Shown here: in pieces, positions 2,754-34,362 of the stretch | Layout of the letters: each line of letters begins with the position of its first letter | Position numbering within the stretch: position 1 is the first letter of the stretch | Assembly: GCA_020631155.1 (NCBI GenBank) | Contig: JAHDHV010000004.1 | Coordinates: forward strand, 1-55,853 | Length of the DNA: 55,853 nucleotides | Source of the DNA: Bacteroidota bacterium | Lineage (GTDB): Bacteria; Bacteroidota; Bacteroidia; Chitinophagales; UBA2359 | Direction: 5' to 3' | Notes under the pieces: model-generated | Seen by the model: the letters and a program-made list of their open reading frames with translations, nothing else | Told to the model about the DNA's origin: nothing | The model's database searches: none | Made by a program: the position numbers and the translations under genes

Positions 2754-2847
2754 TGTAAAAAGAATCAATTTGTAGAATTATTTTATTTATAGAAGTGTTT
2801 AAAAACTTGTGAACGCTACTTTTTTCAGATAAAAAACGCCATCAACT

Positions 2848-4554
2848 ATGTTAAGACTCCCTTACGGCATCAGCAATTTTAAAACCTTAGTTACAGAGGG
2901 CTACCATTACGTAGACCGCACTTCTTATGTGGAACTGCTAGAAAATCTCGACCCTCGTTATTTATTTTTTCTTCGCCCAAGAAGATTTGGAAAAAGTCTG
3001 TTTATTTCGCTCTTACAACACTACTATGGGCTAGAACATAAAAAGGATTTTCAAACCTTATTTGGGAAATATTATATTGGCAAAAATCCAACACCAAATG
3101 TCAATAAATATTTGGTATTAAAAATTGATTTTAGTCGTGTTGATAGTACAAGTAAAGAAAGTACTTTTGAGGGATTTGTGAGTAACATTAAGGAAAGTAT
3201 TTTGCAATTTTTAACTACTTATTCTTCTTTTTTTACAGAAAAAGATAAAGTAAGGGTTTCTGAAAAAAATGCTCCAAACAGTTTAATGATAGCGTTCTTT
3301 CTTATTGTTCAAGAAAAAAAAATCACCCAAAAAATCTATCTTTTAATTGATGAATACGACCATTTTGCCAATGAACTAATCGCTTTTGATATAGATAATT
3401 TCTCCAATATTGTGAGTAGAAATGGATATGTGAGAAAGTTTTATGAAACCATCAAAGTAGCAACACATGATGGCATTGTTGACCGAATATTTATTACGGG
3501 GGTCTCTCCTATTACACTGGATAGCCTAACGAGTGGCTTTAACATTGCTACAGGTCTTACTATTTACCCCAATTTCAATGAAATGATGGGGTTTACAGAG
3601 CAAGAAGTTAAGTTTTTCTTTGATAATATTGATTTTCCGAAAGAAAAAATGCCTGATACCTTAGCCAATATAAAAAAGTGGTATAATGGCTATTTATTTC
3701 ATGAAAATGCCCAAAACACATTATACAATCCTGATATGGTACTCTCTTTTCTTCATCATTATACGCTTTTTAAGGAGATACCTAAAAATTTGCTTGCACC
3801 AAATATCGCTAGTGATTATGGCAAAATCAAACGACTGTTTAATATTAATGACAGACAGCAAAATTGGAAAACACTAGAAAAAATTATTGAAAATGGAAAA
3901 ATATCTGCTAAACTGACGAGGGAATTTAGCTTTGAGAAAGTTTTTGATAAAAATGATTTTGTTAGTCTGCTCTTTTATCTTGGGCTATTGACCGTCAAAG
4001 GCAGTTTTTTTGATAGAACCATATTTACCATTCCCAATTATGTGATCAAAATGCTCTATTTTGACCATTTCCAGCAACTCATTATGGATAAGGCGCAGCT
4101 CACATCCGACGAAGTGCAACTCGAAGAACATATTTTTGAACTTGCTCAATACAATCGAATCCATCCTTTTTTAGCAGTCGTTGAACGCATTTTGAAAAGC
4201 CTTTCTAGTCGCGATGCGCTCAAATTTGATGAGAAGCATTTGAAAGTTATTTTTACTTCCCTATTTTATGTCACAGGCATTTACACCATTCAAAGCGAGT
4301 TTGCTGTTGGGCGAGAGCATGTAGATTTATTTCTTGCACGCCGTCCACCCTATGAACCACCCTATCAATTTGTTTTTGAGTTAAAATATTTAAAAAAATC
4401 AGGAGAAAAGCAGTTGGAAACGGTAAAAAAAGAAGCAACTCAGCAACTCAAAAAATACCTACAGCACGAAACTTTTGCTCCATTAAACGACCTCAAAGCT
4501 TATGTTGTTGTATTTGTGGGAACAGATGTAAAAGCAGTGGAAGTGTTGAGATAA
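2848..4554 (+). CDS. AAA-ATPase-like / PD-(D/E)XK nuclease-fold protein, array copy 1
   Basis: This 568-residue cytosolic protein matches the widespread Bacteroidetes family with an N-terminal AAA-ATPase-like domain (Pfam AAA-ATPase_like) and a C-terminal PD-(D/E)XK domain (PDDEXK_9). Walker A is RPRRFGKS (43-50) and Walker B is IYLLIDEYD (163-171, D168/E169). Putative nuclease residues are D493 (EHVDLF) and E511/K513 (FELKYL). Residues 1-91 and about 162-568 are the same as in the two following genes, while about 92-160 differ. The gaps between copies are 29 bases, so the three genes are probably one transcript. The ATG follows a conserved leader (ATAAAAAACGCCATCAACT) present before every copy. 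Family function is not established; a role in defence or in nucleic-acid processing is a guess from the fold. Confidence 0.85.
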   Translation: MLRLPYGISNFKTLVTEGYHYVDRTSYVELLENLDPRYLFFLRPRRFGKSLFISLLQHYYGLEHKKDFQTLFGKYYIGKNPTPNVNKYLVLKIDFSRVDSTSKESTFEGFVSNIKESILQFLTTYSSFFTEKDKVRVSEKNAPNSLMIAFFLIVQEKKITQKIYLLIDEYDHFANELIAFDIDNFSNIVSRNGYVRKFYETIKVATHDGIVDRIFITGVSPITLDSLTSGFNIATGLTIYPNFNEMMGFTEQEVKFFFDNIDFPKEKMPDTLANIKKWYNGYLFHENAQNTLYNPDMVLSFLHHYTLFKEIPKNLLAPNIASDYGKIKRLFNINDRQQNWKTLEKIIENGKISAKLTREFSFEKVFDKNDFVSLLFYLGLLTVKGSFFDRTIFTIPNYVIKMLYFDHFQQLIMDKAQLTSDEVQLEEHIFELAQYNRIHPFLAVVERILKSLSSRDALKFDEKHLKVIFTSLFYVTGIYTIQSEFAVGREHVDLFLARRPPYEPPYQFVFELKYLKKSGEKQLETVKKEATQQLKKYLQHETFAPLNDLKAYVVVFVGTDVKAVEVLR

Positions 4555-4583
4555 ATTTTCCTAAATAAAAAACGCCATCAACT

Positions 4584-6287
4584 ATGTTAAGACTCCCTTA
4601 CGGCATCAGCAATTTTAAAACCTTAGTTACAGAGGGCTACCATTACGTAGACCGCACTTCTTATGTGGAACTGCTAGAAAATCTCGACCCTCGTTATTTA
4701 TTTTTTCTTCGCCCAAGAAGATTTGGAAAAAGTCTGTTTATTTCGCTCTTACAACACTACTATGGGCTAGAACATAAAAAGGATTTTCAAACCTTATTTG
4801 GGAAATATTATATTGGCAAAAATCCAACACCAAATGTCAATAAATATTTGGTATTGTGTATTAATTTCAGTTCTGTTAATACAGCCAATCATGAAAGTAC
4901 ATTTGAAGGCTTTTTAAATAGTGTACGTTTAGGTATTAAAGCTTTTTTTCAATCATATAATCAATTTTTCACTAAAGAAGATGAAGATGTGCTAAATATG
5001 CATCAGCCTAATGAGTTGATGTTAAATTTTTTAAGTATTGTTAATGGCAAAAAAACAGGGCGAAAAATTTACCTTTTAATTGATGAATACGACCATTTTG
5101 CCAATGAACTAATCGCTTTTGATATAGATAATTTCTCCAATATTGTGAGTAGAAATGGATATGTGAGAAAGTTTTATGAAACCATCAAAGTAGCAACACA
5201 TGATGGCATTGTTGACCGAATATTTATTACGGGGGTCTCTCCTATTACACTGGATAGCCTAACGAGTGGCTTTAACATTGCTACAGGTCTTACTATTTAC
5301 CCCAATTTCAATGAAATGATGGGGTTTACAGAGCAAGAAGTTAAGTTTTTCTTTGATAATATTGATTTTCCGAAAGAAAAAATGCCTGATACCTTAGCCA
5401 ATATAAAAAAGTGGTATAATGGCTATTTATTTCATGAAAATGCCCAAAACACATTATACAATCCTGATATGGTACTCTCTTTTCTTCATCATTATACGCT
5501 TTTTAAGGAGATACCTAAAAATTTGCTTGCACCAAATATCGCTAGTGATTATGGCAAAATCAAACGACTGTTTAATATTAATGACAGACAGCAAAATTGG
5601 AAAACACTAGAAAAAATTATTGAAAATGGAAAAATATCTGCTAAACTGACGAGGGAATTTAGCTTTGAGAAAGTTTTTGATAAAAATGATTTTGTTAGTC
5701 TGCTCTTTTATCTTGGGCTATTGACCGTCAAAGGCAGTTTTTTTGATAGAACCATATTTACCATTCCCAATTATGTGATCAAAATGCTCTATTTTGACCA
5801 TTTCCAGCAACTCATTATGGATAAGGCGCAGCTCACATCCGACGAAGTGCAACTCGAAGAACATATTTTTGAACTTGCTCAATACAATCGAATCCATCCT
5901 TTTTTAGCAGTCGTTGAACGCATTTTGAAAAGCCTTTCTAGTCGCGATGCGCTCAAATTTGATGAGAAGCATTTGAAAGTTATTTTTACTTCCCTATTTT
6001 ATGTCACAGGCATTTACACCATTCAAAGCGAGTTTGCTGTTGGGCGAGAGCATGTAGATTTATTTCTTGCACGCCGTCCACCCTATGAACCACCCTATCA
6101 ATTTGTTTTTGAGTTAAAATATTTAAAAAAATCAGGAGAAAAGCAGTTGGAAACGGTAAAAAAAGAAGCAACTCAGCAACTCAAAAAATACCTACAGCAC
6201 GAAACTTTTGCTCCATTAAACGACCTCAAAGCTTATGTTGTTGTATTTGTGGGAACAGATGTAAAAGCAGTGGAAGTGTTGAGATAA
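4584..6287 (+). CDS. AAA-ATPase-like / PD-(D/E)XK nuclease-fold protein, array copy 2
   Basis: This is the 567-residue middle copy. It has the same N-terminal 91 residues, Walker A and C-terminal ~400 residues as its neighbours. The segment from residue 92 to the residues just before Walker B is the most divergent of the three (for example CINFSSVNTANH where copies 1 and 3 read KIDFSRVDSTSK, and KKTGRKIYLL where they read KKITQKIYLL). It is one codon shorter inside that block. The predicted Walker B and the PD-(D/E)XK residues are intact, so it does not look like a pseudogene. The leader and the 29-base spacers are identical to those of copy 3, as expected from tandem duplication. Confidence 0.85.
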   Translation: MLRLPYGISNFKTLVTEGYHYVDRTSYVELLENLDPRYLFFLRPRRFGKSLFISLLQHYYGLEHKKDFQTLFGKYYIGKNPTPNVNKYLVLCINFSSVNTANHESTFEGFLNSVRLGIKAFFQSYNQFFTKEDEDVLNMHQPNELMLNFLSIVNGKKTGRKIYLLIDEYDHFANELIAFDIDNFSNIVSRNGYVRKFYETIKVATHDGIVDRIFITGVSPITLDSLTSGFNIATGLTIYPNFNEMMGFTEQEVKFFFDNIDFPKEKMPDTLANIKKWYNGYLFHENAQNTLYNPDMVLSFLHHYTLFKEIPKNLLAPNIASDYGKIKRLFNINDRQQNWKTLEKIIENGKISAKLTREFSFEKVFDKNDFVSLLFYLGLLTVKGSFFDRTIFTIPNYVIKMLYFDHFQQLIMDKAQLTSDEVQLEEHIFELAQYNRIHPFLAVVERILKSLSSRDALKFDEKHLKVIFTSLFYVTGIYTIQSEFAVGREHVDLFLARRPPYEPPYQFVFELKYLKKSGEKQLETVKKEATQQLKKYLQHETFAPLNDLKAYVVVFVGTDVKAVEVLR

Positions 6288-6316
6288 ATTTTCCTAAATA
6301 AAAAACGCCATCAACT

Positions 6317-8023
6317 ATGTTAAGACTCCCTTACGGCATCAGCAATTTTAAAACCTTAGTTACAGAGGGCTACCATTACGTAGACCGCACTTCTTATGTG
6401 GAACTGCTAGAAAATCTCGACCCTCGTTATTTATTTTTTCTTCGCCCAAGAAGATTTGGAAAAAGTCTGTTTATTTCGCTCTTACAACACTACTATGGGC
6501 TAGAACATAAAAAGGATTTTCAAACCTTATTTGGGAAATATTATATTGGCAAAAATCCAACACCAAATGTCAATAAATATTTGGTATTAAAAATTGATTT
6601 TAGTCGTGTTGATAGTACAAGCAAAGAAAGTACTTTTCAAGGTTTTTTGAGAAATGTGAAAAGAGGAGTTAACAAATTCATGGCTGCTTATCCACATATC
6701 TTTGACGAAAAAGATAGAATGACTATTCTAAATGCAAATGCCCCAAATATTTTATTGTTGGATCTATTTGATATAATGGACAGAAAAAAAATCACCCAAA
6801 AAATCTACCTTTTAATTGATGAATATGACCATTTTGCCAATGAACTAATCGCTTTTGATATAGATAATTTCAGCAATATTGTGAGTAGAAATGGATATGT
6901 GAGAAAGTTTTATGAAACCATCAAAGTAGCAACACATGATGGCATTGTTGACCGAATATTTATTACGGGGGTCTCTCCTATTACACTGGATAGCCTAACG
7001 AGTGGCTTTAACATTGCTACAGGTCTTACTATTTACCCCAATTTCAATGAAATGATGGGGTTTACAGAGCAAGAAGTTAAGTTTTTCTTTGATAATATTG
7101 ATTTTCCGAAAGAAAAAATGCCTGATACCTTAGCCAATATAAAAAAGTGGTATAATGGCTATTTATTTCATGAAAATGCCCAAAACACATTATACAATCC
7201 TGATATGGTACTCTCTTTTCTTCATCATTATACGCTTTTTAAGGAGATACCTAAAAATTTGCTTGCACCAAATATCGCTAGTGATTATGGCAAAATCAAA
7301 CGACTGTTTAATATTAATGACAGACAGCAAAATTGGAAAACACTAGAAAAAATTATTGAAAATGGAAAAATATCTGCTAAACTGACGAGGGAATTTAGCT
7401 TTGAGAAAGTTTTTGATAAAAATGATTTTGTTAGTCTGCTCTTTTATCTTGGGCTATTGACCGTCAAAGGCAGTTTTTTTGATAGAACCATATTTACCAT
7501 TCCCAATTATGTGATCAAAATGCTCTATTTTGACCATTTCCAGCAACTCATTATGGATAAGGCGCAGCTCACATCCGACGAAGTGCAACTCGAAGAACAT
7601 ATTTTTGAACTTGCTCAATACAATCGAATCCATCCTTTTTTAGCAGTCGTTGAACGCATTTTGAAAAGCCTTTCTAGTCGCGATGCGCTCAAATTTGATG
7701 AGAAGCATTTGAAAGTTATTTTTACTTCCCTATTTTATGTCACAGGCATTTACACCATTCAAAGCGAGTTTGCTGTTGGGCGAGAGCATGTAGATTTATT
7801 TCTTGCACGCCGTCCACCCTATGAACCACCCTATCAATTTGTTTTTGAGTTAAAATATTTAAAAAAATCAGGAGAAAAGCAGTTGGAAACGGTAAAAAAA
7901 GAAGCAACTCAGCAACTCAAAAAATACCTACAGCACGAAACTTTTGCTCCATTAAACGACCTCAAAGCTTATGTTGTTGTATTTGTGGGAACAGATGTAA
8001 AAGCAGTGGAAGTGTTGCGGTAA
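6317..8023 (+). CDS. AAA-ATPase-like / PD-(D/E)XK nuclease-fold protein, array copy 3
   Basis: This 568-residue last copy shares its variable-block beginning (KIDFSRVDSTSKESTF) and end (KKITQKIYLL) with copy 1, but differs between them (for example GFLRNVKRGVNKFMAAY). Silent differences continue past Walker B to about 6873, including a Ser codon AGC where copies 1 and 2 use TCC. From there to the last codons the three genes appear identical. Its final codons are TTG CGG TAA instead of TTG AGA TAA, which marks the edge of the duplicated unit. ATPase and nuclease motifs are intact. Confidence 0.85.
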   Translation: MLRLPYGISNFKTLVTEGYHYVDRTSYVELLENLDPRYLFFLRPRRFGKSLFISLLQHYYGLEHKKDFQTLFGKYYIGKNPTPNVNKYLVLKIDFSRVDSTSKESTFQGFLRNVKRGVNKFMAAYPHIFDEKDRMTILNANAPNILLLDLFDIMDRKKITQKIYLLIDEYDHFANELIAFDIDNFSNIVSRNGYVRKFYETIKVATHDGIVDRIFITGVSPITLDSLTSGFNIATGLTIYPNFNEMMGFTEQEVKFFFDNIDFPKEKMPDTLANIKKWYNGYLFHENAQNTLYNPDMVLSFLHHYTLFKEIPKNLLAPNIASDYGKIKRLFNINDRQQNWKTLEKIIENGKISAKLTREFSFEKVFDKNDFVSLLFYLGLLTVKGSFFDRTIFTIPNYVIKMLYFDHFQQLIMDKAQLTSDEVQLEEHIFELAQYNRIHPFLAVVERILKSLSSRDALKFDEKHLKVIFTSLFYVTGIYTIQSEFAVGREHVDLFLARRPPYEPPYQFVFELKYLKKSGEKQLETVKKEATQQLKKYLQHETFAPLNDLKAYVVVFVGTDVKAVEVLR

Positions 8024-11628: not shown

Positions 11629-12314
11629 CCCAGTAAATTTATATTTAACCCAAGCAATAACATTCCCTTTGCGAATATAAAGTGATTATCAACTTGTTAC
11701 AAATGTTTTTTTAAATTAGACTATGTTTGTGCTTGTTATTATGGCTTTTTTATAGCAAAAAAAATAAAATAATACTTTTTCAAACATCTAAAAATCGAAT
11801 ATTTCAACTACAAAAATCAACCAATTATATTATATACTTACTTTTCATCTTATTATTACTAACATTATATAAAAAATAGATTTGAAACATTACTAAGTAC
11901 CTAATTTTGAGGCTTTACATAGAAAATAAAATGTTAAAACGATTATCCTTCAACTAGCTGTTAACTATTTATATAACAAAATGCACCCACACTTATATAT
12001 CTACTTGACTAAGTAGCTGCTATCTTAAAGCTTTTTTAATACATTGCATAACTATCAACAAAATACATTTCCTTCTCTTTTACAAATAAAAGTGAAATTA
12101 TTTAATTTTAAATTAGCAAACATAAACACAATATCAATCTATTTTCCCATAAAAAAAAGTATTTATTTTCTATAACAAAAAATGATAAAATATAATCAGT
12201 TGTAAAACAAAATTAATAATATACAAACTATAGTTAATCAGTTTTATTAGGCTTATGGCAAGATTTTTGAATCTTAACAATAGTCAAGGTAAAAAACAAC
12301 TTAAATGTTTAGCA
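11629..12314. other. AT-rich divergent intergenic region
   Basis: This region lies between the divergently transcribed PKD gene and the giant adhesin and must hold both promoters. I see no gene, hairpin or clear promoter motif. An alternative upstream adhesin start lies at 12255 within it. Confidence 0.5.
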
Positions 12315-15300
12315 ATGAATCGAACAGTCACTCTTACGCACTTACTCCTCATAAGTGCATTTTTATTGATCAATAGCTTTACAATTTCAGCACAGACGAC
12401 CCCAACCGCTACCAATGACGACACAACAACCCTTAGCAATACCCTCGTTACGATTGATGTGTTAGAAAATGACTCGGAAGGTGACTCCCGAATTAGCTTA
12501 GTTGGCATTGTAAACGACCCTACGAATGGTACTGCTATTCCAATTACCTCAAATGGTACTATCTTATATACCCCTAATACTGGCTTTATAGGTGAAGATG
12601 AATTTACTTACCAAATTTCTGATGAGGAAGGTGATTTGGCGCAAGCAACTGTTACTATCAGCATTACTTCTGAAGACCCACCACCCAATACTAACAATGT
12701 ATCGGCGACCGATGATGAGGTGACCGCCACAGCAGAAGAACCTACACAAATTGATGTATTGAGAAATGATACAGGCGATAATTTAACTGTTGGGATTACG
12801 GCACTGCCCGAAAATGGGGCAGCTGTTGTGAATGATGATAATACCATCACCTATACCAGTGATGCAGGTTTCAGCGGCAGGGATGAACTGACCTATGAAA
12901 TTGAAGATGATGCTGGTAATACGGCTAGGGCTACCGTTACGATTGAAGTAACTGTACCTACTCCACCAGCAAGTAATGTATCGGCAACAGATGATAGTGC
13001 AGAAGCTTTCGAAAGTATGCCTGTACAGATTGATGTATTGAACAATGATACAGGGGACAATTTGACGGTTAGCATTACAACCAACCCCAATAATGGTTCG
13101 GCTTCTGTCAACAATGATAATACCATTACCTATACTTCTAATGCAGGCTTTAATGGAATAGACCAACTAACCTATGAAATTGAAGATGATGCAGGAAATA
13201 CAGCTAGTGCAACAGTAACCATTGGCGTAGTAATTCCCGATCCTGCTTTAATGGCTGTAGATGATGTGGTTACAACTAATACATTACAACCTAGAGTTAT
13301 TGATGTATTAGCAAATGATCAAAATATACTTGGTGGTAGTAATGATCAACTATTTGTTAGCGGTATTACTACACCTCCTAGTAATGGTTCAGCTACGGTC
13401 AATAATGATAATACCATTACCTATGTGTCTAATGCTGGTTTTTCTGGTACAGATGAATTGGTCTATGAGATCGGAATTGCTCAGGGGGATACGGATAGAG
13501 CTACGGTAACAATCACTGTAGAAGGTGTGCCCTCAAGTGTGGTAGCGGTAGACGATGCGATTACCACAGATACACAGCAGCCTAGAGTAGTGAATGTTTT
13601 GGACAATGATACAGGTGAAAATCTAGTAGTGACCATCACTACGCCCCCTAATAATGGTTCGGCAAATGTTAATAATAACAACAGCATTACCTACATTTCC
13701 AATACAGGTTTTGCTGGTACGGATCAACTAACCTATACAGCCACTAATTCACAAACCAACGAATCGGCTAGTGCAGTGCTAACCATCACGGTAAATGCAG
13801 TTGTGGCCGATCCGCCTGTGGCAAATGATGATGCGACACAGATGGAGCAAAATACCACGACGACCATTTTGGTGTTGAATAATGATCAAGGCAATAATTT
13901 AAGTGTTAGCATCAATACAACTCCTGCCAATGGTACGGCGACTGTTGCTGCTAATAGTGCGATTAACTATACGCCTAGTGCAAATTTTACAGGTACAGAT
14001 ATTTTTACTTATCTGCTCACCGATACAGAAAGCGGTTTAACGACTACTGCACAGGTCACTGTTACTGTAATTGGAACAACAAATCCACCTACGGGCAATC
14101 CTCCTGTGGCAAATGATGATGCAACCCCAACTTTGATTAATACTACGGTTAATATTCTTGTTTTAGATAATGATACAGGAAGTAATGTACAATTAAGCAT
14201 TAATCAAAATCCTGCTAATGGTTCGGTCAATATTAATGCAGATAATACCATTAGTTATACTCCAAATAACAATTATGTAGGTACAGACCAGTTTGTTTAT
14301 ACTTTAACAGATACGGAAACCAATTTATCTGATGATGCAACGGTAACGGTCACTGTAACAGGTACGCCCGGCGGTGGCAATGATGGACCTACTGCTGTTG
14401 ACGATCAAACAATTACCAATATCAACACTGCTGTAGACATACAAGTATTGAGTAATGATTCTGGTAATGGTGTGATTATCGCGCCTGGTGGAATTTCGGT
14501 GCCTGCCAATGGTACGGCTTCCTTAAAATTGGGCGGCACAATTACTTATACCCCTAATGATAATTTTGTGGGTGTAGATGCTTTTTCTTATCAAATTGTC
14601 GATCAAAATGGCTTAACAGCAACCGCTATGGTCACTGTTGATGTAGTACAAACAGATAATCAAGCTCCAAATATTGCCAATATTAGCCGATGTACCGAAC
14701 CTCTAACTCCTGTTACTATTTGCCACAACTGGACAGACCCTGACGGGGATGAGGTAGAAATTAATATTGATGAAAGTCATACAACCTTTAATTGCAGCTT
14801 GACTTTATTAAGTGATAGCTGTTTTAGATATACACCGCTCCCCGGTTTCTTTGGCACAGATACGGTGTTTTTGGTGGTTTGCGACAAGCAACTGCCTCCA
14901 CTTTGCTCAACTTCCAATGTTATTGTACATGTGGGTTGTGTCGCACCTAATGCCAACCCTGATAATGTAAGTATCAATGAAAATTTAGTAGTCATTAACG
15001 GCAGCCAAAGCAATGATACGAATGGTTACGATGGCATTGCGATTCCTGTGACTAGTAATGATAACGATCCTTGTGGAGCAACTTCGCTTAGTGTGAGTAC
15101 GATTCTTCAAGCTCCGCAAAATGGTACTGCCGTTCCCAATGGTGGGATTATTCAGTATACGCCAAACAGTGGTTTTGGTGGCACAGAAATTTTACAATAT
15201 GTTACTTGTAATAACTGCCCTGTTTGTGATACAACAACAGTGACCATCCAAGTACAACCGCAATTTATTTGCAATCTTGATCAAAATACTTGTATTCCGC

Positions 15301-18300
15301 CGTTTAACGCCACAGAGCTATGCCCCCAATTTTGTAATGTAGATGCTACTGTGTCTACCTCTCGCGTTTCCTTCTTCGGAACAGCAGGCACCATTACCCC
15401 GAACAATGCCAACAATTGTTTTAGCTATGTGCCTCCGCCTTCTTTTGGCACAACGGAAGTGATTTCTTTTGTGGCTTGTGATGCAAATAATGCTTGCGAT
15501 ACAACCCGAATAACGGTGACTATTGACCCCGCTTGTGGCGAAAGTCCCCCTATTGCCAATGACGATACAAGAAATACCGAGCTAGGGCAAACCTTACTGA
15601 TTAATGTTTTAGATAATGATAATGAGTTGGATGGACAAGATTTAATTATTTCAGGAATTATAAGAAATCCTAGTTGTGGAGCCGCAGTAATTAGCAATAA
15701 TGGTACGAATGTCACTTATACGGCTAATGCCACTTGCGATCAGGAAAATGATTCCTTCGACTATGTGATTTGCGATCCGACAGCTTTGTGTGATACCGCA
15801 ACGGTATTCATCAACTTTGATCCGATCATCACACCACCTGACCCGCCAGACCCACCAAATCCGCCTAGTGACTGTGAGTTTGAATCGCAGTTTTGTACAG
15901 AGCCTTTCCGCCCTGTAGAAATATGTGTTCAGTTCTGTGAATTAACAGGCGACAGCATCCAAGTGATCAGTGCAGAAACTACCTTTAACTGTAGCATTAC
16001 CTTGCTTAATGATACTTGTATCCGCTATACGCCTCTCCCCGGTTTTGTAGGTGGTGATACGGTCAGTATTTTAGGTTGTAATGCCATTAATGAATGTGAA
16101 ACGGTTCGCGTAAATGTTAATACAGGCTGCGCCAATCCAATCGCAGTAGACGATGCCATTGAAGTGCCTAGCAATCAAACTAGAAGCATTACAGTACTGG
16201 AAAATGACACCGATCCTTGTGGGGATTTGCTGAATACAACTATTCTTGGAAATGCCAGCAATGGTACGTCTTTTGTTAATAGCGATGGTACCATTACCTA
16301 TACCTCCAATGAGGGTTATCAAGGAGCAGATCAAATTACCTATATCGCTTGTAATCAGTGTGATGATGACGGTGGGCCGCGCTGTGATACGGCGGTGGTC
16401 AATATTACTGTAACAGATGATGGTGGCGGCAATCCTACTCCTGTGGTTTTGGATGCCGAACCTGATGTAGTACAAACGCCTTACAACACCCCTATTTCTA
16501 TTCCTGTTACCAATAATGATTCTGGAAATAACCTAGTAGTTACCACCACAATTGAACCTGAATCGGGTACGATTGTAAATAATGGTGATGGCACAATTAC
16601 TTATACTCCTGAACCTGATTTTTCGGGAGAAGATTACTTTTTTTATCAGGTTTGTGATGGTGGCAATCGCTGTGAGGAAACCATTGTGAGCGTTACAGTA
16701 TTGCCTAATAATAATGCAAATACGCCCCCTATTGCCAATAATGATGTAGCCATTACAGATGAAGATGAACCAGTTGCCATTCCTGTTTTGGTAAATGATA
16801 ACGATCCTGAAAATACAAACTTAACAGTAACTACCATTGTAGAACAACCTAATAATGGTACGGCTACGCCAAATGCCAATGGTACGGTTACTTATACTCC
16901 TGATCCAAATTTTATTGGAGAAGATGATTTTAGTTATGTTGTTTGTGATGCTGGAAACCCACAAGAATGTGATACAGCACAAGTAGGCATCAATGTAGGG
17001 GGCAACACCTTTACCAATGATCCGCCGGTGGCACAGGATGATGAGGCGATTATTGAACCGAATGTTGATGTAAGTATTCCTATCCTCAACAACGATAGTG
17101 ACCCCAATGCCGACCCCATCACCGCAACCATTAGCTCACAGCCTGCTCATGGTACAGCAACCATCAGCCCAGGCGGTCAGTTGGATTATACTCCCGATCC
17201 TGACTATCAGGGGACGGATTATTTGACTTATGTTATTTGTGATAATGGGAATCCTGTATTGTGTGATACGGCTTATGTGCGAGTCACTATTGGCGATGGC
17301 AACCAACCGCCAAACCCACTAGATGATAATGCAACAACGCCAATTAATACGCCTGTATTGATTGATGTGATGAGTAATGATAGCGATCCTGATCATCCCA
17401 ATAGTGAATTAGTGTTAACTATAGCAACACAGCCTACTAATGGGACAGCAATGTTATCAGGCAATATGCTCATTTACGAACCAAATAGCGGCCATCAAGG
17501 GTCTGATATGTTTACTTATCAGTTGTGTGATCCTGAAAATGATTGTGCAACAGCTACCGTTTTTGTAAATATTGTTACAGAAATTGAAGATATTGATGCC
17601 GAGCCTGATTTGGTGACTACTAATGTAAATATGCCGATTACCATTCCTATTTTAAATAATGATTTTGGAACGGATTTAGGCACGCCAACCGTATTGAATG
17701 GTCCTGATAATGGAACAGTGGTATCTATTAATCCAGAAACGGGTGATTTAACCTATCAACCGAATCCTGATTATACAGGCGAGGATTTTATTTTATACCA
17801 AATTTGCGATGCCAATAATAATTGTGATTCAACGCTTGTTTCCATTACCATTTTACCAGATATCACCCCTAATTTACCACCAACAGCTGGTAATGATGTA
17901 GCACAAACGCCAATGGGCAGCCCTATCAATATCCCTGTAACGGGCAATGATAGTGACCCAAATGGCGACCCAATAACTGTCACCGATATTGTTGACCGAC
18001 CTGAAAACGGAACAGCAACACCAAATCCTGACGGCACCATTGATTATACACCAAACCCCGATTTTGAGGGTTGTGATATATTTACCTATACCATTTGTGA
18101 TAATGCAACACCTCCGCTATGTGATACTGCATCCGTACAGGTAGAGGTTGGCAATGCCAGTTGCTTGAATATGCCTCCAATAGCAGTAGATGAACTATTG
18201 AGTGTTCCAATGAATACACCTATCAATATTCCCGTTTTAGCCAATAGCGATAGAGACCCAGACGGTGACCCGATAACGGTTCGCATTGGCTCTAATCCTG

Positions 18301-21300
18301 CTAATGGTACTTTGAGCAATACCGACAGCCCTAACGGAAACTATACTTATACCCCTAATCCCGATTTTTCAGGGGAAGATTTCTTTACTTACATCATTTG
18401 CGACAATGGACAACCTATTTTATGTGATACTGGATTTGTTACCATCACCGTAATGCCTGAACAAGATATTGATGCAGAACCAGACATTGAATTTACCAAT
18501 ATGAATGAATCGGTTACCTTTAACATTTTAACCAATGATGAAGGCACTAATATCACCATCACCGACATTCTTTCTAATCCAAAAAATGGAAATCTTATTG
18601 GTATTGATGAGGTGACAGGCGATGTAACTTATATTCCAGAAAATAATTTTACAGGAACAGATTATTTTGTTTATCAAATTTGCAATACAGATAATGAATG
18701 TGATACAACTACCGCATCCATCACTGTATTACCACCTAATACACCGAATTTACCGCCAACAGCAGGGGGTGATTTGGCAGAAACACTGCCTAATATACCT
18801 GTTGTTATTCCTGTAACGGGCAACGACAGCGATCCGAATGGCGATCCGTTAACCGTAACAGACATTACAACACCGCCTAGCAACGGTACAGTTACTCCAA
18901 ATCCAGATGGTACAGTCACTTATACCCCTAACCCTGATTTTGAAGGCTGCGACCTGTTTGCTTATCTTGTTTGTGATGATGGCACGCCTCAGCTTTGTGA
19001 TACGGCCTTTGTGGGTGTGAGTGTTGGCGATGTCAATTGCCTCAACAATCCACCTTTGGCATTTGACGATCGGGAAAATACTGAGGAAGCAACGCCTGTT
19101 CGGATAAATGTATTGAGAAATGGCGATATAGACCCTGATGGCGATAATTTAACCATCATTATAGGTACTGAACCGGGGAATGGACAAATTACAGAAATTG
19201 CAGGTCCTGTGTTTACGTATTTGCCAGATGAAGATTTTATTGGTGTAGACTATTTCAATTACATTATTTGTGATGATGGCCAACCAGTGTTATGTGATAC
19301 CGCTACCGTATCCATTACGGTTAGTCCTTCTGGCTTAGATGCCGAACCTGATATTGATTTTACCCCTATCAATACTCCTGTTGATATTCTTGTTTTGGAA
19401 AATGATATTGGTACAGGTTTAGAAATTTCTGCCATTTTATCCAATCCTGATAATGGACAAATAGAATGGAACTCAAACGGTACGGTTACTTATACCCCTG
19501 ATCCTGATTTTGTGGGAACAGATTATTTCCAATATCAGGTAACAGATACGGTTGGCGATACAGATTTTACGCTGGTCACCATCATTGTACTACCTGATAG
19601 CTTGGCAAATGTGCCGCCTAATGCAGTCAATGACGAAGCATTTACAGCACCTAATACACCCGTTCTCATTAGTCCATTAATGAATGATACCGACCCATTA
19701 GGGGGAGATACCATATTGATTACAGATATTACACAGCCCGAAAATGGTACAGTTGTCGTTAATCCAGACGGTACAATAACTTATACCCCTAATCCTGATG
19801 TCCTAAGCCCAATGGTTGATACCTTTACCTATGTAATTTGTGATAATGGCACACCAATTTTATGTGATACTGCCGTAGTTGCTGTGGGTATTGATTTAGA
19901 GCCACCGTTGAACTTATTCCCTGTAGCTCTTGACGATTCTACAGTAACCAATATGAATACACCAATTGATATTGATATCTTGGATAATGATTTTGATCCT
20001 GAAAATGGTCAGTTAACCATCACTGTATTAACCGATCCGCGACATGGTACAACACGCCCAGCCGAAGAGCCGGGTGTTTATAACTATTCGCCAGAGCCGG
20101 GATTTACAGGCATTGATTTCTTCACCTATGCCATTTGTGATGATGGTACTCCATCGCACTGTGATACCGCTTTTGTCACCATTATTGTACAAGGCGATAC
20201 CGCACAAATCGGCATCATTACCCCCGAAGAAACACCCGATACGGTTTGTATTGGAAACTTCTTACCAGAGGGTTTTGTGATTGATACCATCATTGTAACT
20301 AGTGTACCTGAGAATGGTGTGCCCTTCTTCCCAATGGACAATGACAGTTGTATTGCCTACCAGCCAAATGATGATTTTGTTGGAGATGATGAATTTAGCA
20401 TTGAGGTTTGTGATAGTACTGGAAACTGTATGCCTGTTAATGTGGATATTATTGTGCTAGAAGAACCAGATCCGCCGATTGCGGTGAACGATACGAGTTT
20501 TACAGATGTTAATACACCGATAGCCATTCCTGTTTTAGCCAATGATAGTGATCCTGATGATGATCCAATTGTTAGTGTCTCTATCTTAGAAGGGCCATTT
20601 GTAGAAGGAGCAACTGTACAACTTGATTCAGCAACGCTCGTAACGGTTTATATGCCTGCGGATGAATATGTAGGTACGGATTCGTTCAGCTACTTAATTA
20701 CAGATTCAACAGGGATGATTAGTGATACGGCATGGGTATTTATCACCATTGATAGTATACCGCCAGAGCCACCAGAGCCACCAGAAATGGGTGACATCAT
20801 TGCCACCATAGACCGCGATACCACAACGGTTGATCAGCCGATTTCTATTCGCGTATTGGACAATGACCAATTGCCTGATTCTAATGTGGTGAGCATTGAT
20901 ATTACAGTAGTGGATAACCCTATGGATGGAGCTGCTATTGTAAATGATAGCACCATCACCTACGCCCCACAAGATGGTTTTGTAGGAGTAGATACCTTTA
21001 CGTACCGCCTTTGCGCTACGATGGAAAATGACTCCGTTATTTGTGATACGGCAGAGGTAATTGTTGTTATCCGTCCGAATCCTTCGGATGATTGCCAAGC
21101 AGAGTTCTCGGCAGGCTTCTCCCCTAATGAGGACGGCTTCAACGAGGAGTTTCTCATCGGCAATCTGGACGACCCCTGTTTTGATGATATTCCATTAAAG
21201 CTCATCATCTTCAATCGCTGGGGCGACATTGTTTATCTGATCAATAATTACAGCAATGATTTCGCATGGGATGGCACTTTCCAAAGAAACGGAAATCCCG

Positions 21301-21389
21301 TTCCTGATGGAACTTATTATTACCTTTTATGGTTTGAAATAGACGGAGAGGATAGAGACCAAAGCGGTTTCGTAGAAGTGAAACGTTGA
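12315..21389 (+). CDS. Giant cadherin/Ig-like tandem-repeat adhesin with T9SS type B (CHU_C) tail
   Basis: This is an extracellular protein of about 3024 residues. I prefer the start at 12315, where MNRTVTLTHLLLISAFLLIN...SAQ is a good signal peptide; 12255 would add 20 hydrophilic residues. It is built from about 30 modules of 80-100 residues of the type PPxAxDD...VLxNDxD...P.NGT...TYTPNxxFxGxDxFxY, the cadherin-like/tandem-95 family. Modules 1-8 lack Cys; most later ones carry the pair VICDxG...LCDTA. Four modules of a different Cys-rich type interrupt the series (about 14680, 15268, 15870, 20200). The last ~95 residues (FSPNEDGFNEEFLI...IFNRWGDIVY...WDGTFQRNG) are the gliding-motility-associated domain that directs T9SS export. 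It is likely an adhesin or matrix protein. It is monocistronic, with a terminator after it. Confidence 0.9.
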   Translation: MNRTVTLTHLLLISAFLLINSFTISAQTTPTATNDDTTTLSNTLVTIDVLENDSEGDSRISLVGIVNDPTNGTAIPITSNGTILYTPNTGFIGEDEFTYQISDEEGDLAQATVTISITSEDPPPNTNNVSATDDEVTATAEEPTQIDVLRNDTGDNLTVGITALPENGAAVVNDDNTITYTSDAGFSGRDELTYEIEDDAGNTARATVTIEVTVPTPPASNVSATDDSAEAFESMPVQIDVLNNDTGDNLTVSITTNPNNGSASVNNDNTITYTSNAGFNGIDQLTYEIEDDAGNTASATVTIGVVIPDPALMAVDDVVTTNTLQPRVIDVLANDQNILGGSNDQLFVSGITTPPSNGSATVNNDNTITYVSNAGFSGTDELVYEIGIAQGDTDRATVTITVEGVPSSVVAVDDAITTDTQQPRVVNVLDNDTGENLVVTITTPPNNGSANVNNNNSITYISNTGFAGTDQLTYTATNSQTNESASAVLTITVNAVVADPPVANDDATQMEQNTTTTILVLNNDQGNNLSVSINTTPANGTATVAANSAINYTPSANFTGTDIFTYLLTDTESGLTTTAQVTVTVIGTTNPPTGNPPVANDDATPTLINTTVNILVLDNDTGSNVQLSINQNPANGSVNINADNTISYTPNNNYVGTDQFVYTLTDTETNLSDDATVTVTVTGTPGGGNDGPTAVDDQTITNINTAVDIQVLSNDSGNGVIIAPGGISVPANGTASLKLGGTITYTPNDNFVGVDAFSYQIVDQNGLTATAMVTVDVVQTDNQAPNIANISRCTEPLTPVTICHNWTDPDGDEVEINIDESHTTFNCSLTLLSDSCFRYTPLPGFFGTDTVFLVVCDKQLPPLCSTSNVIVHVGCVAPNANPDNVSINENLVVINGSQSNDTNGYDGIAIPVTSNDNDPCGATSLSVSTILQAPQNGTAVPNGGIIQYTPNSGFGGTEILQYVTCNNCPVCDTTTVTIQVQPQFICNLDQNTCIPPFNATELCPQFCNVDATVSTSRVSFFGTAGTITPNNANNCFSYVPPPSFGTTEVISFVACDANNACDTTRITVTIDPACGESPPIANDDTRNTELGQTLLINVLDNDNELDGQDLIISGIIRNPSCGAAVISNNGTNVTYTANATCDQENDSFDYVICDPTALCDTATVFINFDPIITPPDPPDPPNPPSDCEFESQFCTEPFRPVEICVQFCELTGDSIQVISAETTFNCSITLLNDTCIRYTPLPGFVGGDTVSILGCNAINECETVRVNVNTGCANPIAVDDAIEVPSNQTRSITVLENDTDPCGDLLNTTILGNASNGTSFVNSDGTITYTSNEGYQGADQITYIACNQCDDDGGPRCDTAVVNITVTDDGGGNPTPVVLDAEPDVVQTPYNTPISIPVTNNDSGNNLVVTTTIEPESGTIVNNGDGTITYTPEPDFSGEDYFFYQVCDGGNRCEETIVSVTVLPNNNANTPPIANNDVAITDEDEPVAIPVLVNDNDPENTNLTVTTIVEQPNNGTATPNANGTVTYTPDPNFIGEDDFSYVVCDAGNPQECDTAQVGINVGGNTFTNDPPVAQDDEAIIEPNVDVSIPILNNDSDPNADPITATISSQPAHGTATISPGGQLDYTPDPDYQGTDYLTYVICDNGNPVLCDTAYVRVTIGDGNQPPNPLDDNATTPINTPVLIDVMSNDSDPDHPNSELVLTIATQPTNGTAMLSGNMLIYEPNSGHQGSDMFTYQLCDPENDCATATVFVNIVTEIEDIDAEPDLVTTNVNMPITIPILNNDFGTDLGTPTVLNGPDNGTVVSINPETGDLTYQPNPDYTGEDFILYQICDANNNCDSTLVSITILPDITPNLPPTAGNDVAQTPMGSPINIPVTGNDSDPNGDPITVTDIVDRPENGTATPNPDGTIDYTPNPDFEGCDIFTYTICDNATPPLCDTASVQVEVGNASCLNMPPIAVDELLSVPMNTPINIPVLANSDRDPDGDPITVRIGSNPANGTLSNTDSPNGNYTYTPNPDFSGEDFFTYIICDNGQPILCDTGFVTITVMPEQDIDAEPDIEFTNMNESVTFNILTNDEGTNITITDILSNPKNGNLIGIDEVTGDVTYIPENNFTGTDYFVYQICNTDNECDTTTASITVLPPNTPNLPPTAGGDLAETLPNIPVVIPVTGNDSDPNGDPLTVTDITTPPSNGTVTPNPDGTVTYTPNPDFEGCDLFAYLVCDDGTPQLCDTAFVGVSVGDVNCLNNPPLAFDDRENTEEATPVRINVLRNGDIDPDGDNLTIIIGTEPGNGQITEIAGPVFTYLPDEDFIGVDYFNYIICDDGQPVLCDTATVSITVSPSGLDAEPDIDFTPINTPVDILVLENDIGTGLEISAILSNPDNGQIEWNSNGTVTYTPDPDFVGTDYFQYQVTDTVGDTDFTLVTIIVLPDSLANVPPNAVNDEAFTAPNTPVLISPLMNDTDPLGGDTILITDITQPENGTVVVNPDGTITYTPNPDVLSPMVDTFTYVICDNGTPILCDTAVVAVGIDLEPPLNLFPVALDDSTVTNMNTPIDIDILDNDFDPENGQLTITVLTDPRHGTTRPAEEPGVYNYSPEPGFTGIDFFTYAICDDGTPSHCDTAFVTIIVQGDTAQIGIITPEETPDTVCIGNFLPEGFVIDTIIVTSVPENGVPFFPMDNDSCIAYQPNDDFVGDDEFSIEVCDSTGNCMPVNVDIIVLEEPDPPIAVNDTSFTDVNTPIAIPVLANDSDPDDDPIVSVSILEGPFVEGATVQLDSATLVTVYMPADEYVGTDSFSYLITDSTGMISDTAWVFITIDSIPPEPPEPPEMGDIIATIDRDTTTVDQPISIRVLDNDQLPDSNVVSIDITVVDNPMDGAAIVNDSTITYAPQDGFVGVDTFTYRLCATMENDSVICDTAEVIVVIRPNPSDDCQAEFSAGFSPNEDGFNEEFLIGNLDDPCFDDIPLKLIIFNRWGDIVYLINNYSNDFAWDGTFQRNGNPVPDGTYYYLLWFEIDGEDRDQSGFVEVKR
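16441..20200. repeat. Higher-order three-module repeat inside the adhesin
   Basis: The module order DAEPD-type, PPTAGND-type, PPxAxDD-type recurs, beginning near 16446, 17590, 18469 and 19335 (the first period holds one extra module). The last three periods are about 870-880 nt. The copies are diverged, so the duplication is old. Confidence 0.7.
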
Positions 21390-29645: not shown

Positions 29646-30932
29646 ATGAAAACACACCGCCTAATTTTGGTATTGACGTTCCTATTACTCAGTACTTCAT
29701 CTGTATTTAGTAATTGTTGTAACGGTTCAGAACAGCAAGGTATCCAGTTTTTTGTAGGAACTTGGGATCAAGTATTGGAAATGGCAGAGGTGCGTAAAAA
29801 ACCAATTTTTGTACATATGTACACTAATTACACGCCAGCTTGCCGAAAAATGGAGAAGGAAATTTTTAAAGATTACCGCTCTGTTAATCTGTATAATACA
29901 GAATTTATTAATCATAAAATAAATTTGCATACAAAGGAGGGTATGAAATTTAAAGAGCGCTTCAACCTGCCCAATACCACTAGTCAGTTTCCTGTATTGT
30001 TGTATTTTGATCAGACAGGTAGCTTATTAATGAAAAAATTAGGCGAAAAGAGCGTCAATGAGTTCTTAGATATTGGCAATCAAATTATTCATGCTAGTGA
30101 TGGACAAAAAAACAAAACCATTGCTCAACCTTATATGAATTATATTATTTATAAAGCGAGCTATGAGGAAGGAGAGCGCAAACCTAATTTTCTGCATGAA
30201 TATGCTTATCAAGCCAAAAAATTCAATGATAACTACCTACCAATGGTCAACGAGTATATTGCACAACTCAGCGATGAGAAATTATTTACTCAAAAAAATG
30301 CACAGTTTATTTGCGATTTCTCCGATGATATTCATGCAAGACCTTTTGAAATATTACTAAACAATAAACATCGTTTTATCAGTGTATTGGGGCGCGAAAT
30401 TGTTGAAAATAAAATGAAAGAAGCTATTCGTACAGCCGTTGTAAATAGTGCGATGGCACAAGAAAGTGAGCCACAAAATTTTCAATATGCGCTGCGTACT
30501 GTTACCAAATGCAATCTTTCTGATGCTTCAGAATACACTTTTTTGATGGAGTTATTGTATGCTAAAAAGCTGAGAAATTGGGGAAGCTATCGCGCACTGG
30601 CTTATAATTACTTGGAAAATAATACCATTGAGAACGCGAATGTAATGAATGAAATAGCGTGGCAATTTGCGATACATGCTTCTGATAAAGACAAATTAGA
30701 ATTGGCTTTAGAATGGACTACGACCATTATTGAAGCGAAACCCAAAACTTTCTCTTATTTAGAAACGCAAGCAGCTTTATTGTACCGCTTAAACAAAAGG
30801 TCAAAAGCCATTAAAATAGCCGAAAAAGCTATTGATCTGGCCAAACAAAGAGGTATTAATTATAAGTCTACCTTAAATCTGTTAAAAGCCATCAATACGG
30901 ATACCGTTATTCCTCAAAATTTAAGAAAATGA
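29646..30932 (+). CDS. Secreted thioredoxin-TPR protein, paralog 1 (degenerate TPAC site)
   Basis: This 428-residue exported protein has a signal peptide (MKTHRLILVLTFLLLSTSSVFS). It has a thioredoxin-like domain at about 33-155 (KKPIFVHMYTNYTPACRKME, cis-Pro in SQFPVLLYF) and a helical C-terminal part with TPR-like repeats (end: RSKAIKIAEKAIDLAKQRG). The canonical CxxC is TPAC: the first Cys is replaced by T63 and only C66 remains, so it cannot act as a simple dithiol oxidoreductase. Additional Cys pair C24-C25 follows the signal peptide. It is the first of three co-oriented paralogs separated by 490-1670 bases. Role unknown; possibly a chaperone or redox partner for exported proteins. Confidence 0.8.
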   Translation: MKTHRLILVLTFLLLSTSSVFSNCCNGSEQQGIQFFVGTWDQVLEMAEVRKKPIFVHMYTNYTPACRKMEKEIFKDYRSVNLYNTEFINHKINLHTKEGMKFKERFNLPNTTSQFPVLLYFDQTGSLLMKKLGEKSVNEFLDIGNQIIHASDGQKNKTIAQPYMNYIIYKASYEEGERKPNFLHEYAYQAKKFNDNYLPMVNEYIAQLSDEKLFTQKNAQFICDFSDDIHARPFEILLNNKHRFISVLGREIVENKMKEAIRTAVVNSAMAQESEPQNFQYALRTVTKCNLSDASEYTFLMELLYAKKLRNWGSYRALAYNYLENNTIENANVMNEIAWQFAIHASDKDKLELALEWTTTIIEAKPKTFSYLETQAALLYRLNKRSKAIKIAEKAIDLAKQRGINYKSTLNLLKAINTDTVIPQNLRK

Positions 30933-31423
30933 TAAATTTTACACAAAGCTTGTCAGTAATTCAATAAGTTATTGATTAACAAAATTTTACCTAAGTCTAT
31001 TTACAAAATTACTTTAGATAAAGTATTAAATTTTACCAAAAAACAACAACTCAATCAGCAAAGATTTGGTTATTTATTGATATTTTGTGTTCACTAGCTT
31101 AAATATAAAGTTCACAAATTATTGATTTCGTGGGTTGCACAAATAGTTTTTTTGGTAAAAGAATACTTTATCTATTGTTTTCCTACACAGTTTACTAAAG
31201 GTAAGGTACTATTCTATCCTCTGTTTATTTGGCTTCTCCCCTCAAAATATTTAAGTCAATATCACTCTTGTTAGTACCCAAACAATAAAGCGTTTTTTTG
31301 GACTAAAAGGAATTAGCAATTAATACCTTCAAACAAAATTTCACCCAATTAAATAGTGTTTGGCACTCGCTTTTCTATTGTATACTAAACTGTGTAGATT
31401 AGTTACCCTTAAATCATTGACTT
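30933..31423. other. AT-rich spacer between thioredoxin-TPR paralogs 1 and 2
   Basis: No gene. It contains the dispersed word AATTAAATAGTGTTTGGCAC at 31347-31366, related to 181-206 and 34106-34153. The length implies that paralog 2 has its own promoter. Confidence 0.5.
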
Positions 31424-32689
31424 ATGGTAAATCCAAAATCTCTGAACCATTCTGTACTACTATTCTCATTCCTATTGTTACCCCTCTTTTCTATTCCTAT
31501 TTATGCTCAAAAAATTGCTGTAAAATTTGAAAAAGGAAACTGGTATAAAGTTATTGAAAAAGCTAAGGAGGAAAATAAGCTTATCTTTGTAGATGTGATG
31601 GCCGACTACTGCCCGCCTTGTAAGGTAATGGATGCTGAAGTATTTCCAGAAAAAAGTGTTGCCTTATTTTACAATGAACATTTCATAAGCTATCGCATTG
31701 ATATTGAGGCAAAAGAAAGTACTTATTTAAAAGAATTATTTAATATTAAAACAGTTCCTACTTTGCTCTTTCTTACCTCAGAGGGGAAGCTCATAAAAAA
31801 GTTGGAAGAAGGAAAAACAGCCAAAGAATTTATTGTATTGGGTAAAGAAGTGATGAGCGATAAACGCTCTTTTATGGTGCAAGTAAATGATAATGATCCT
31901 GATTGGCTGCGCTATAAAGAGCTAGAACGCATGTATCAATCAGGTACACGACAACCCAAATTTTTGCGAGAATATGCCTACCTACTACGTAGATATCGCA
32001 AGCCTCATAATATGGTTGTTAACGAATATCTTCGCACACAAGCAAACCGCAAACACCTCAAAGAAAACCGACTATTTGTATATGATTTCACCAGTAATCT
32101 AGGCAATTTAGCGGTCGATTTTTTTATCAAAGACATTCAACATTACAAACAAAGTCATGGTGGTAAAAAAATTAATGAAAAGGTGAAAACTGCTATTTAC
32201 AACAGTATTTTAACAGCTATTCGAGAGCGCGATTATAATTTATTTGATAAGGCAAATCTCATTTTCAAAGACATTGAACTACCTGAACAAGATAAATTTG
32301 TTTTTGAAATGCAGTCGCTTTTTTATCAAGGAATTGAGGATTGGGAAAACTATGCAGAAGTAGCTTATAAATACTTGAATAGCAAAGAGATAACTGACCC
32401 TATTTTATTAAATGATATAGCTGCAAAATTTCACCAATATGTTAATAGTAAAAAGGACTTGAAACAGGCCTTGAAGTGGGTAAAACAGTCTATTAAAATA
32501 GAAAATGAGTATTATAACAATACAACTGCTGCGTCTCTTTATCATAAATTAGGTAAAACTAAAAAAGCAATTAAGGCTGCGGAAAAAGCCATAAAAATTG
32601 CTAAACTGCGCGGTCGGGATAACTATCAAGGTGCATTGCGAATGGTTGATAGAATGAAATCGCAACAAACAAAGTTAAATTTGTATTAG
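31424..32689 (+). CDS. Secreted thioredoxin-TPR protein, paralog 2 (canonical CPPC)
   Basis: This 421-residue protein has a signal peptide ending near PIYAQ, then a thioredoxin-like domain with DYCPPCKVMD (C63, C66) and cis-Pro in KTVPTLLFL. That is similar to the thioredoxin_7/DsbD-gamma type. The C-terminal ~250 residues are helical with TPR-like ends (LKQALKWVKQSIKIENEYYN, KTKKAIKAAEKAIKIAKLRG). It is the only paralog with an ordinary active site, so it is the one most likely to be a working oxidoreductase. The family C-terminus is shared with paralogs 1 and 3. The stop is followed almost at once by a GAGACGCAAG-type hairpin. Confidence 0.82.
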   Translation: MVNPKSLNHSVLLFSFLLLPLFSIPIYAQKIAVKFEKGNWYKVIEKAKEENKLIFVDVMADYCPPCKVMDAEVFPEKSVALFYNEHFISYRIDIEAKESTYLKELFNIKTVPTLLFLTSEGKLIKKLEEGKTAKEFIVLGKEVMSDKRSFMVQVNDNDPDWLRYKELERMYQSGTRQPKFLREYAYLLRRYRKPHNMVVNEYLRTQANRKHLKENRLFVYDFTSNLGNLAVDFFIKDIQHYKQSHGGKKINEKVKTAIYNSILTAIRERDYNLFDKANLIFKDIELPEQDKFVFEMQSLFYQGIEDWENYAEVAYKYLNSKEITDPILLNDIAAKFHQYVNSKKDLKQALKWVKQSIKIENEYYNNTTAASLYHKLGKTKKAIKAAEKAIKIAKLRGRDNYQGALRMVDRMKSQQTKLNLY

Positions 32690-34362
32690 AATATGGAGAG
32701 ATGCAAGATTTTGCGTCTCAACAATTTGATAAACCTAGTCTGCTCTGAAATTTGGAGTGGACTTTTTTGTGCCCCATTTATTAGTGAATTTCAAAAGCAC
32801 CCACACAGGAAAAAGTATATTATTTTATTTTTTTTGACATAAAAAAGACACTTTTATAACACTTTCTACCTATTTCTAGCCTTATATTAATAGTGTTTAG
32901 CATGTTTTTAAGCTTGAAAAATGATATAACTCATCATATCTATAAAATATTAGAAAATTATTTTTTTACCATCTAAAAAATTGATAATCAATGTATTAAA
33001 TAGTTTTCCATCCTCCATGTATCATAGTACTGTAATGAGGTATCCATTGTTATTGATTAAATAATATTTTTATCAAAATGTTAAAATCATTGTACTTATA
33101 AAAAAAACAGTTGTATGAATGGGGTAAATGGTTTATTTTTTTATCAAAACTCCATTGTTTCATTTTTAGAGCTTGTTCACACTATATACTTAATGCATTG
33201 TAGACAGAAAATGACAGTTTAAGCTAGTCAAGTTTAACATAAATAGTTTAAAAAAAATATCAATACACTAAGGAGAACACTCACTACCTATCAACACATA
33301 CTAGTAATGGCTCATTTTTGTATTTAAGTATGACATACTTTTATAATATTCTTGAAACATTTATCCATTTATCTGCGTACAAAATACGGAAACCTTAGTA
33401 TTATCATGCATAATACACTAATTAAAAACTATTTATGTTTGAAAATTTCACACATTTTAAATAGTTGACATAATACTATGGCTGTACCTTCACAGTTTTG
33501 TTTTCCATAAAAATGAACTACTAAAATCTAAGATCAATACAATGCACGCACAAAATTTTCTTTTATCACTGAAAATACAACCAACTATACATAAAAACAA
33601 TCTACTATATACCACTTAGGCTTAACCACAGATACATTGTCTAATGATCATTTTTTTTACATGCGCTATCAACTACATTATAGTGCTAACATTGACTACC
33701 TGACTAATTCTGAGCACTTTGCATAAGTACTCATCAAGCAACTTTAATGCCCTCTAAGTAGGCAAGATTTTTGCAATATTCTTCAAAAAATAGCATCTTC
33801 ATACAGAATTAGCGTCCTATCTGAACAAAGCCTCAACTATATTACAAGTGTTTTTTCATCATACATTTTGTGTATAATAGGTATTATTCTAATTAACTGA
33901 TACTTGTGTAAAATACAAGTGGCTATCTGATTAAATTGACTGACTTTGCAACTTTATGGTAGGGTATCTAACAGTGTCTATTTACATTGTTGCTCATACA
34001 CTTTATAAATTGTTGCTTGAATTGTCATTTTATTTTTTCACCCAACATCTGAAAACAATTTTATACACCCCAACTAATGCCCAATAACGGCCATGAGTAA
34101 TAAATTAAGTGCCAAGCACTAATTAATTGAGCACAATTTTGTTCTAAAGTATTGATTTTCATTATTTTAATCAAACAAAGAGCCCCATTTAATTTATTGT
34201 GTAGTACTTAAATATTGCTCAAGCTTAGTAAATAGATTATTTTCTTTAAAGTATTTTTATTTCATCATTCTTAAAACACTGATAATAAGATAAAAATACA
34301 ATAGAATCATTCTAAATCTTTTGCTAAAATTGTTAATCAACCGAATACATAAATGTAGTGTT
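32690..34362. other. 1.67-kb AT-rich gene desert
   Basis: It starts with a hairpin of the GAGACRCAAG family (about 32695-32720, GAGATGCAAGATTTTGCGTC), and 34106-34153 holds an inverted copy of the word at 159-206. I see no coding frame. The remainder shows no recognisable element. Confidence 0.5.

Follow-up and report, generated by a model that had tools for sequence, protein, structure and literature searches.

Introduction

The closest described relatives of the genes analysed here are the DUF1703 proteins. These were defined by Knizewski et al. (2007, PMC1913061) as an AAA+ ATPase joined to a PD-(D/E)XK nuclease, and that paper describes an RPRRFGKS Walker A and a DEYD Walker B for the family. 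According to a later report, Cardinium cCpun has 25 DUF1703 paralogues with intragenic recombination, a mean identity of 39% and predicted secretion, and their function was left open (Siozios et al. 2019, PMC6387759). One of the two domains, PF09820, is also listed for RdrA of RADAR (PMC10952713).

In this work we describe three tandem genes (units 1 to 3, Table 1) from a draft genome of a Bacteroidota bacterium (GCA_020631155.1, contig JAHDHV010000004.1). The whole 55,853-nucleotide stretch that was analysed is called the window. Judged by sequence, the units belong to the known family DUF1703 (PF09820 plus PF08011). They have its domains, and sequence and alignment reveal the Arg-rich RPRRFGKS Walker A and the DEYD Walker B. 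Both domains score above the curated Pfam cut-offs, with 165.5-165.9 bits against 26.1 for AAA-ATPase_like (PF09820) and 48 bits against 25.5 for PDDEXK_9 (PF08011). A first-pass annotation of this DNA had proposed an undescribed effector. That part of its reading falls, since DUF1703 proteins are known from both of the papers above.

What differs is the pattern of divergence. As far as the text consulted goes, the DUF1703 papers cover domains, expansion and recombination; the feature added here is a set of three segments that are exchanged as discrete alleles. The Cardinium expansion consists of widely divergent paralogues, without breakpoints located in the text consulted, whereas the window holds near-identical units with one swapped block. 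No description of localised, swappable DUF1703 segments was found in the mostly open-access literature searched. The family is therefore a known one, with a segment-swap architecture that is apparently undescribed.

Several other systems are alike in part. The ATPase fold of Avs proteins and of RADAR RdrA may be related to that of the units, judged by Foldseek matches with modest TM-scores. Avs proteins likewise combine a STAND ATPase with a nuclease. They have a repeat-built C-terminal sensor, whereas none was found in the units by Pfam or AlphaFold2; the units are only 568 aa long, have their nuclease at the C-terminus and match no PADLOC family at E 0.1. The CR-type NTPase-REase effectors also join an NTPase to a REase-fold nuclease, and among the Wolbachia CifB nucleases the CinB/CidB structures match the nuclease domain of the units (Foldseek). 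Unlike both, the units have no Pfam-recognised header domain and form a chromosomal tandem array in a bacterium. Finally, in HsdS of type I restriction systems, whole-segment exchange by recombination in conserved borders alters target specificity. The segments described below (V1, V2 and V3) would resemble HsdS target recognition domains in this respect, by analogy only; in contrast to HsdS they lie inside an ATPase-nuclease, and no restriction-modification genes were seen beside the array.

Results

A tandem array with one swapped block

The three units lie head-to-tail with a repeat spacing of 1736 and 1733 nt. The same short spacer joins them and their reading frames are intact. The gene upstream of the array encodes an M43-type protease carrying a Por secretion tail, the one downstream a beta-helix protein. 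The remainder of the window looks like ordinary chromosome, and the lack of recognisable defence genes around the array counts against a role in conflict or defence. The source genome is a 6.48 Mb draft (completeness 91.6%) with 21 matches to PF09820, in which the nearest paralogue outside the array is 51% identical; the copy number and order of the units rest on its 666 contigs, which cannot prove them.

Table 1. Coordinates of the array and its features in the window
Feature	Position	Strand	Description
Unit 1	2848..4554	+	AAA-ATPase_like + PDDEXK_9 protein, 568 aa; PF09820 E 1.3e-48, PF08011 E 1e-12
Unit 2	4584..6287	+	AAA-ATPase_like + PDDEXK_9 protein with another V1 block, 567 aa
Unit 3	6317..8023	+	AAA-ATPase_like + PDDEXK_9 protein of 568 aa; third V1 block
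V1 block, unit 1	3120..3339	+	Gene nt 273-492, aa ~92-164; dS 0.69-1.56 against 0-0.01 in flanks
V1 block, unit 2	4856..5072	+	From alignment and dS
V1 block, unit 3	6589..6808	+	From alignment and dS; further differences up to gene nt 557
Walker A variant (LRPRRFGKS region), unit 1	2974..2997	+	Same in all three units
Walker B (LLIDEYDH region), unit 1	3337..3360	+	Directly after V1; D168, E169, Y170, D171 invariant in 123 relatives
V2-equivalent position, unit 1	3640..3801	+	aa ~265-318, in the lid; the same in units 1 to 3 but exchanged among relatives
V3-equivalent position, unit 1	3985..4227	+	aa ~380-460, hairpin plus helices preceding the nuclease; the same in units 1 to 3 but exchanged among relatives
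PD-(D/E)XK nuclease domain, unit 1	4228..4533	+	aa 461-562; D493, E511, K513, Q533 invariant across 123 relatives (alignment)

In a base-by-base alignment the first 272 nt and the last 1212 nt of units 1 and 2 are identical, and every difference between them, including one codon indel, lies within the V1 block. Between units 1 and 3 there are 71 differing sites, starting at nt 306, and 64 of the 71 are within gene nt 319-472. The differences beyond the block are at nt 492, 510, 556, 557, 1702 and 1704; those at 556 and 557 make up a Ser codon swap (TCC to AGC), and the last two sit at the extreme 3′ end of the gene. An even spread of differences along the units is excluded, and the earlier claim that diversity in the three genes is limited to one block stands. 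V1 alone is replaced in the window; V2 and V3 are the same across the units. Units 1 and 3 agree at the start of the block and over a short piece at its end; the core exchanged between them is therefore shorter, at aa ~108-156. The unit 3 differences at nt 492-557 would fit an exchange tract that is longer and ends elsewhere, and the tracts end at different places in different copies.

The synonymous sites carry the main argument. For the three unit pairs dS within V1 is 0.69, 1.56 and 1.84, and in the flanking codons it is 0.00-0.01. V1 is near saturation and the flanks are at zero, which counts for segment replacement. Because synonymous divergence is high inside the block and about nil outside it, recombination must have placed the V1 differences where they are, as the first-pass annotation had supposed in naming cassette exchange or gene conversion. 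Point mutation in place followed by selection is excluded, since positive selection would leave the synonymous sites of the block as similar as those outside. Diverged V1 blocks may have been recombined into one backbone, or the backbone may have been homogenised around old blocks; the data fit either direction. Within V1 dN/dS is below 1, at about 0.3-0.55, which counts against a conflict or defence role.

Other parts of the window also hold repetitive or duplicated genes. On the reverse strand, 47399-49921 encodes an 840-aa RND-type adaptor with two tandem-repeat arrays, each made of about 6-7 copies of a repeat of about 96 nt; the repeats seem to extend a coiled-coil hairpin, and their copy number may vary between strains. 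Read by eye, three related neighbouring genes (29646-30932, 31424-32689 and 34321-35598, in the region 29646-35598) have a thioredoxin-like N-terminal part, 12255-21389 encodes a 3044-aa protein with many cadherin-like repeat segments and a gliding-type tail at its C-terminus, and the product of 38995-43059 joins an animal-type haem peroxidase to repeat segments and a secretion tail.

Predicted structure of the units

AlphaFold2 models of units 1 and 2 are confident, with pLDDT values of 90.3 and 90.4. In both, V1 forms three helices (103-124, 131-138 and 142/143-156; pLDDT about 97) between the strand 88-94 and the Walker B strand. This agrees with the earlier expectation that the block is helical and leads into Walker B, which in the sequence follows V1 directly. 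The V1 blocks of the two units share about 42% of residues. Because the same three helices are predicted despite this, V1 exchange leaves the predicted fold intact.

The best Foldseek matches are STAND ATPases, namely the archaeal ATPase 2qen, CED-4, Apaf-1 and NLRC4, with E-values of 6e-7 to 2e-3 and modest TM-scores of 0.2-0.4 by query length; Avs3 and RdrA match more weakly. Searching solved structures by sequence gave no meaningful match. In AAA+ proteins in general, elements that contact the substrate or DNA are located between beta-2 and beta-3, and by analogy V1 is therefore a plausible contact site.

Three exchanged segments across the family

Relatives were collected from GTDB genomes and 151 sequences were aligned. 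V1 falls below both neighbouring stretches by more than 0.2 identity in 97 of 164 close pairs, which overlap. Close relatives differ in V1, V2 (aa ~265-318) and V3 (aa ~380-460) in Bacteroidota, Thiotrichales, Desulfobulbaceae, Cloacimonadota and Clostridia. V1 is flanked by strand beta-2 and Walker B, V2 belongs to the lid, and V3 lies between the lid and the nuclease; few parts of the family are less conserved than these three. Their borders recur in unrelated genomes: V1 at aa 108-156 in the window as well as in a tandem pair from Thiomargarita, and at 108-155 or 112-156 elsewhere, V2 at aa 267-315 and V3 at aa about 384-479. A per-pair synonymous test, which weakens for older pairs with more than about 10% nucleotide divergence of the cores, reached p<0.001 in 10 (V1), 8 (V3) and 2 (V2) of 51 overlapping pairs. 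These comparisons show that recombination between diverged alleles replaces as many as three internal segments, each as a block, with the catalytic parts fixed.

An archaeal array has the reverse of the divergence pattern in the window. In Methanospirillum stamsii (L193, G071:C19:500-6100) three tandem DUF1703 genes are 87-97% identical in V3 and the nuclease and 56-74% in the remainder.

Discrete alleles in Thermoanaerobacter and Thiothrix

All 10 Thermoanaerobacter genomes searched have the DUF1703 gene, in 1 to 3 copies, some of them cut by contig ends, and the downstream flank of the locus is shared across species wherever a comparison is possible. The segments sort into few classes: A and B for V1, a and b for V2, and x, y and z for V3. 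Between alleles the nucleotide identity is 58-62% (V1), 54-56% (V2) and 58-72% (V3). Within alleles it is 95-100%, save for the two V1-B copies, which share 82%. In the conserved stretches (aa 15-90, 170-250 and 325-372) all copies keep 90-100% identity; the nuclease stretch and the C-terminal tail also sort into classes.

Written in the order V1, V2, V3, the haplotypes are Aby and Aax in T. wiegelii (G061); Bax, Abx and Aay in G085; Aay and Abx in G087; Aay in G088; Abx in G086; Abx and Aaz in G089; and Abx and Bay in G093. All four combinations with x and y occur, both for V1 with V3 and for V2 with V3, and recombination is therefore required. In T. wiegelii the x-type and y-type copies have their V2 alleles the other way round from the main pair in G085, G087 and G093.

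Equivalent arrays are present in closed or near-closed chromosomes of four Thiothrix species. Their V1 falls into two classes, 62-64% identical to each other and 95-100% within, beside a middle stretch of 93-100%. Their N-terminal stretch (aa 15-90; arrays L290-L293) also has two classes, about 82-84% against 93-100%, and is possibly a further exchanged segment, judged from these identities.

Are the copies in an array selected to differ? The first-pass annotation had thought so, and this does not hold in general. V1 is the same in all copies of the Thiothrix arrays G099, G103 and G104 and differs among the copies of G105, so arrays are not always repertoires. In Thermoanaerobacter no genome has two equal haplotypes, which has a non-significant chance probability of P = 0.22 when G089 and the AS04 contig (L128) are taken as one genome and counted once. 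Selection for a repertoire within arrays is thus contradicted by most Thiothrix arrays.

Donors, switches and neighbours

The first-pass annotation had also raised the possibility of silent donor cassettes. None turned up: the own genome gave only a weak 60-nt match, in a paralogue on another contig (C126), and outside the array the best donor candidate among the 151 relatives has about 46% amino acid identity to the V1 blocks. A diversity-generating retroelement was rejected, as reverse transcriptase genes are found on other contigs only and the block has no second copy outside the array. An invertible or shufflon-type switch was likewise rejected, there being no inverted repeats around V1. 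Read by eye, the surrounding ORFs include no recognised recombinase.

Among 79 loci no cluster of neighbouring genes (ORFs of at least 100 aa) was common to more than 8. With no conserved neighbour at this scale, no separate partner or immunity gene is seen. DUF1703 relatives in phage and plasmid records are few and distant.

Discussion

The most likely explanation, which we hold at about even odds, is that the units are a self-contained conflict or defence ATPase-nuclease, with specificity or inhibitor resistance residing in the exchangeable segments. It is favoured by the block replacement with its recurring borders and reassorting alleles, the invariant catalytic residues, the V1 helices kept between variants, the Foldseek matches and the absence of a conserved neighbour gene of at least 100 aa. 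The DUF1703 protein would act alone inside the cell as a conflict or defence effector, e.g. against phages or other invading DNA. ATP binding and turnover would gate the nuclease, and V1-V3 would bind the trigger or the inhibitors of the invader. By swapping a whole pre-adapted segment the protein could change its specificity at once with the enzyme unharmed, and tandem copies could serve as templates for exchange and hold different specificities. Old discrete alleles, common to several species and shuffled as units, are the expected product of frequency-dependent selection with recombination. A defence role of the units is possible; the missing PADLOC match counts against it, as does the lack of any NCBIfam match. 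The proposed effector is also weakened by the frequent Thiothrix arrays with one V1 in all copies and by the modest TM-scores of the Foldseek matches.

The alternative that survives best is that V1-V3 are simply tolerant regions, in which recombination from conserved flanks, drift and transfer, and gene conversion produce mosaics that leave function unaffected. This would fit the low conservation of the segments, the dN/dS below 1 in V1 and the Cardinium paralogues, which are known to recombine intragenically (PMC6387759). Drift alone predicts something other than few discrete classes with little between them, found in several species and repeatedly exchanged as units, and we think this explanation rather unlikely.

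Less probable still is that the segments form the subunit interface of a homo-oligomer and that swaps prevent mixed rings of co-resident copies. A STAND-like fold and the frequent tandem or multiple copies in the family would suit such insulation. However, free reassortment would break contacts between different segments, three Thiothrix arrays keep one V1 in all their copies, and the single-copy Thermoanaerobacter genomes G086 and G088 carry the same alleles.

We regard it as very improbable that DUF1703 is a selfish or transposase-like NTPase-REase gene whose own spread, not a host function, explains the copies and the recombination. A link between NTPase-REase pairs and transposable elements is reported (Zhang et al. 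2016, cited by PMC5289972), and DUF1703 fragments have been named MITE candidates in Cardinium (PMC12039267). A mobile element is nevertheless not supported for the window, where the units have no bounding inverted repeats and the genome has no close copy beyond the array, and the Thermoanaerobacter locus is chromosomal with a flank shared across species. Finally, falsely expanded units or strain variants strung together are barely credible, even in a 666-contig draft with identical 1.2 kb repeats that are hard for short-read assembly, given the like arrays with the same swapped segment in Thermoanaerobacter and Thiothrix chromosomes that are closed or nearly so and, in the window, the uniform spacer and intact frames.

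The exchanged segments point to where the variable function of the protein resides. The units in the window, which differ only in V1, and the Thermoanaerobacter copies, which differ mainly in V2 or V3, are natural swap experiments. DUF1703 genes are spread over many bacterial phyla and also occur in some archaea, and a single genome often has many of them. A wider and more tentative proposal, to which we give somewhat less than even credence, is that DUF1703 is a widespread single-gene immune or conflict system that takes its specificity from three independently exchangeable segments within one chain, with few long-lived interspecies alleles and no repeat sensor or specificity subunit. Should specificity for a target or inhibitor indeed reside in the segments, an immune-type ATPase could be diversified compactly within a single chain.
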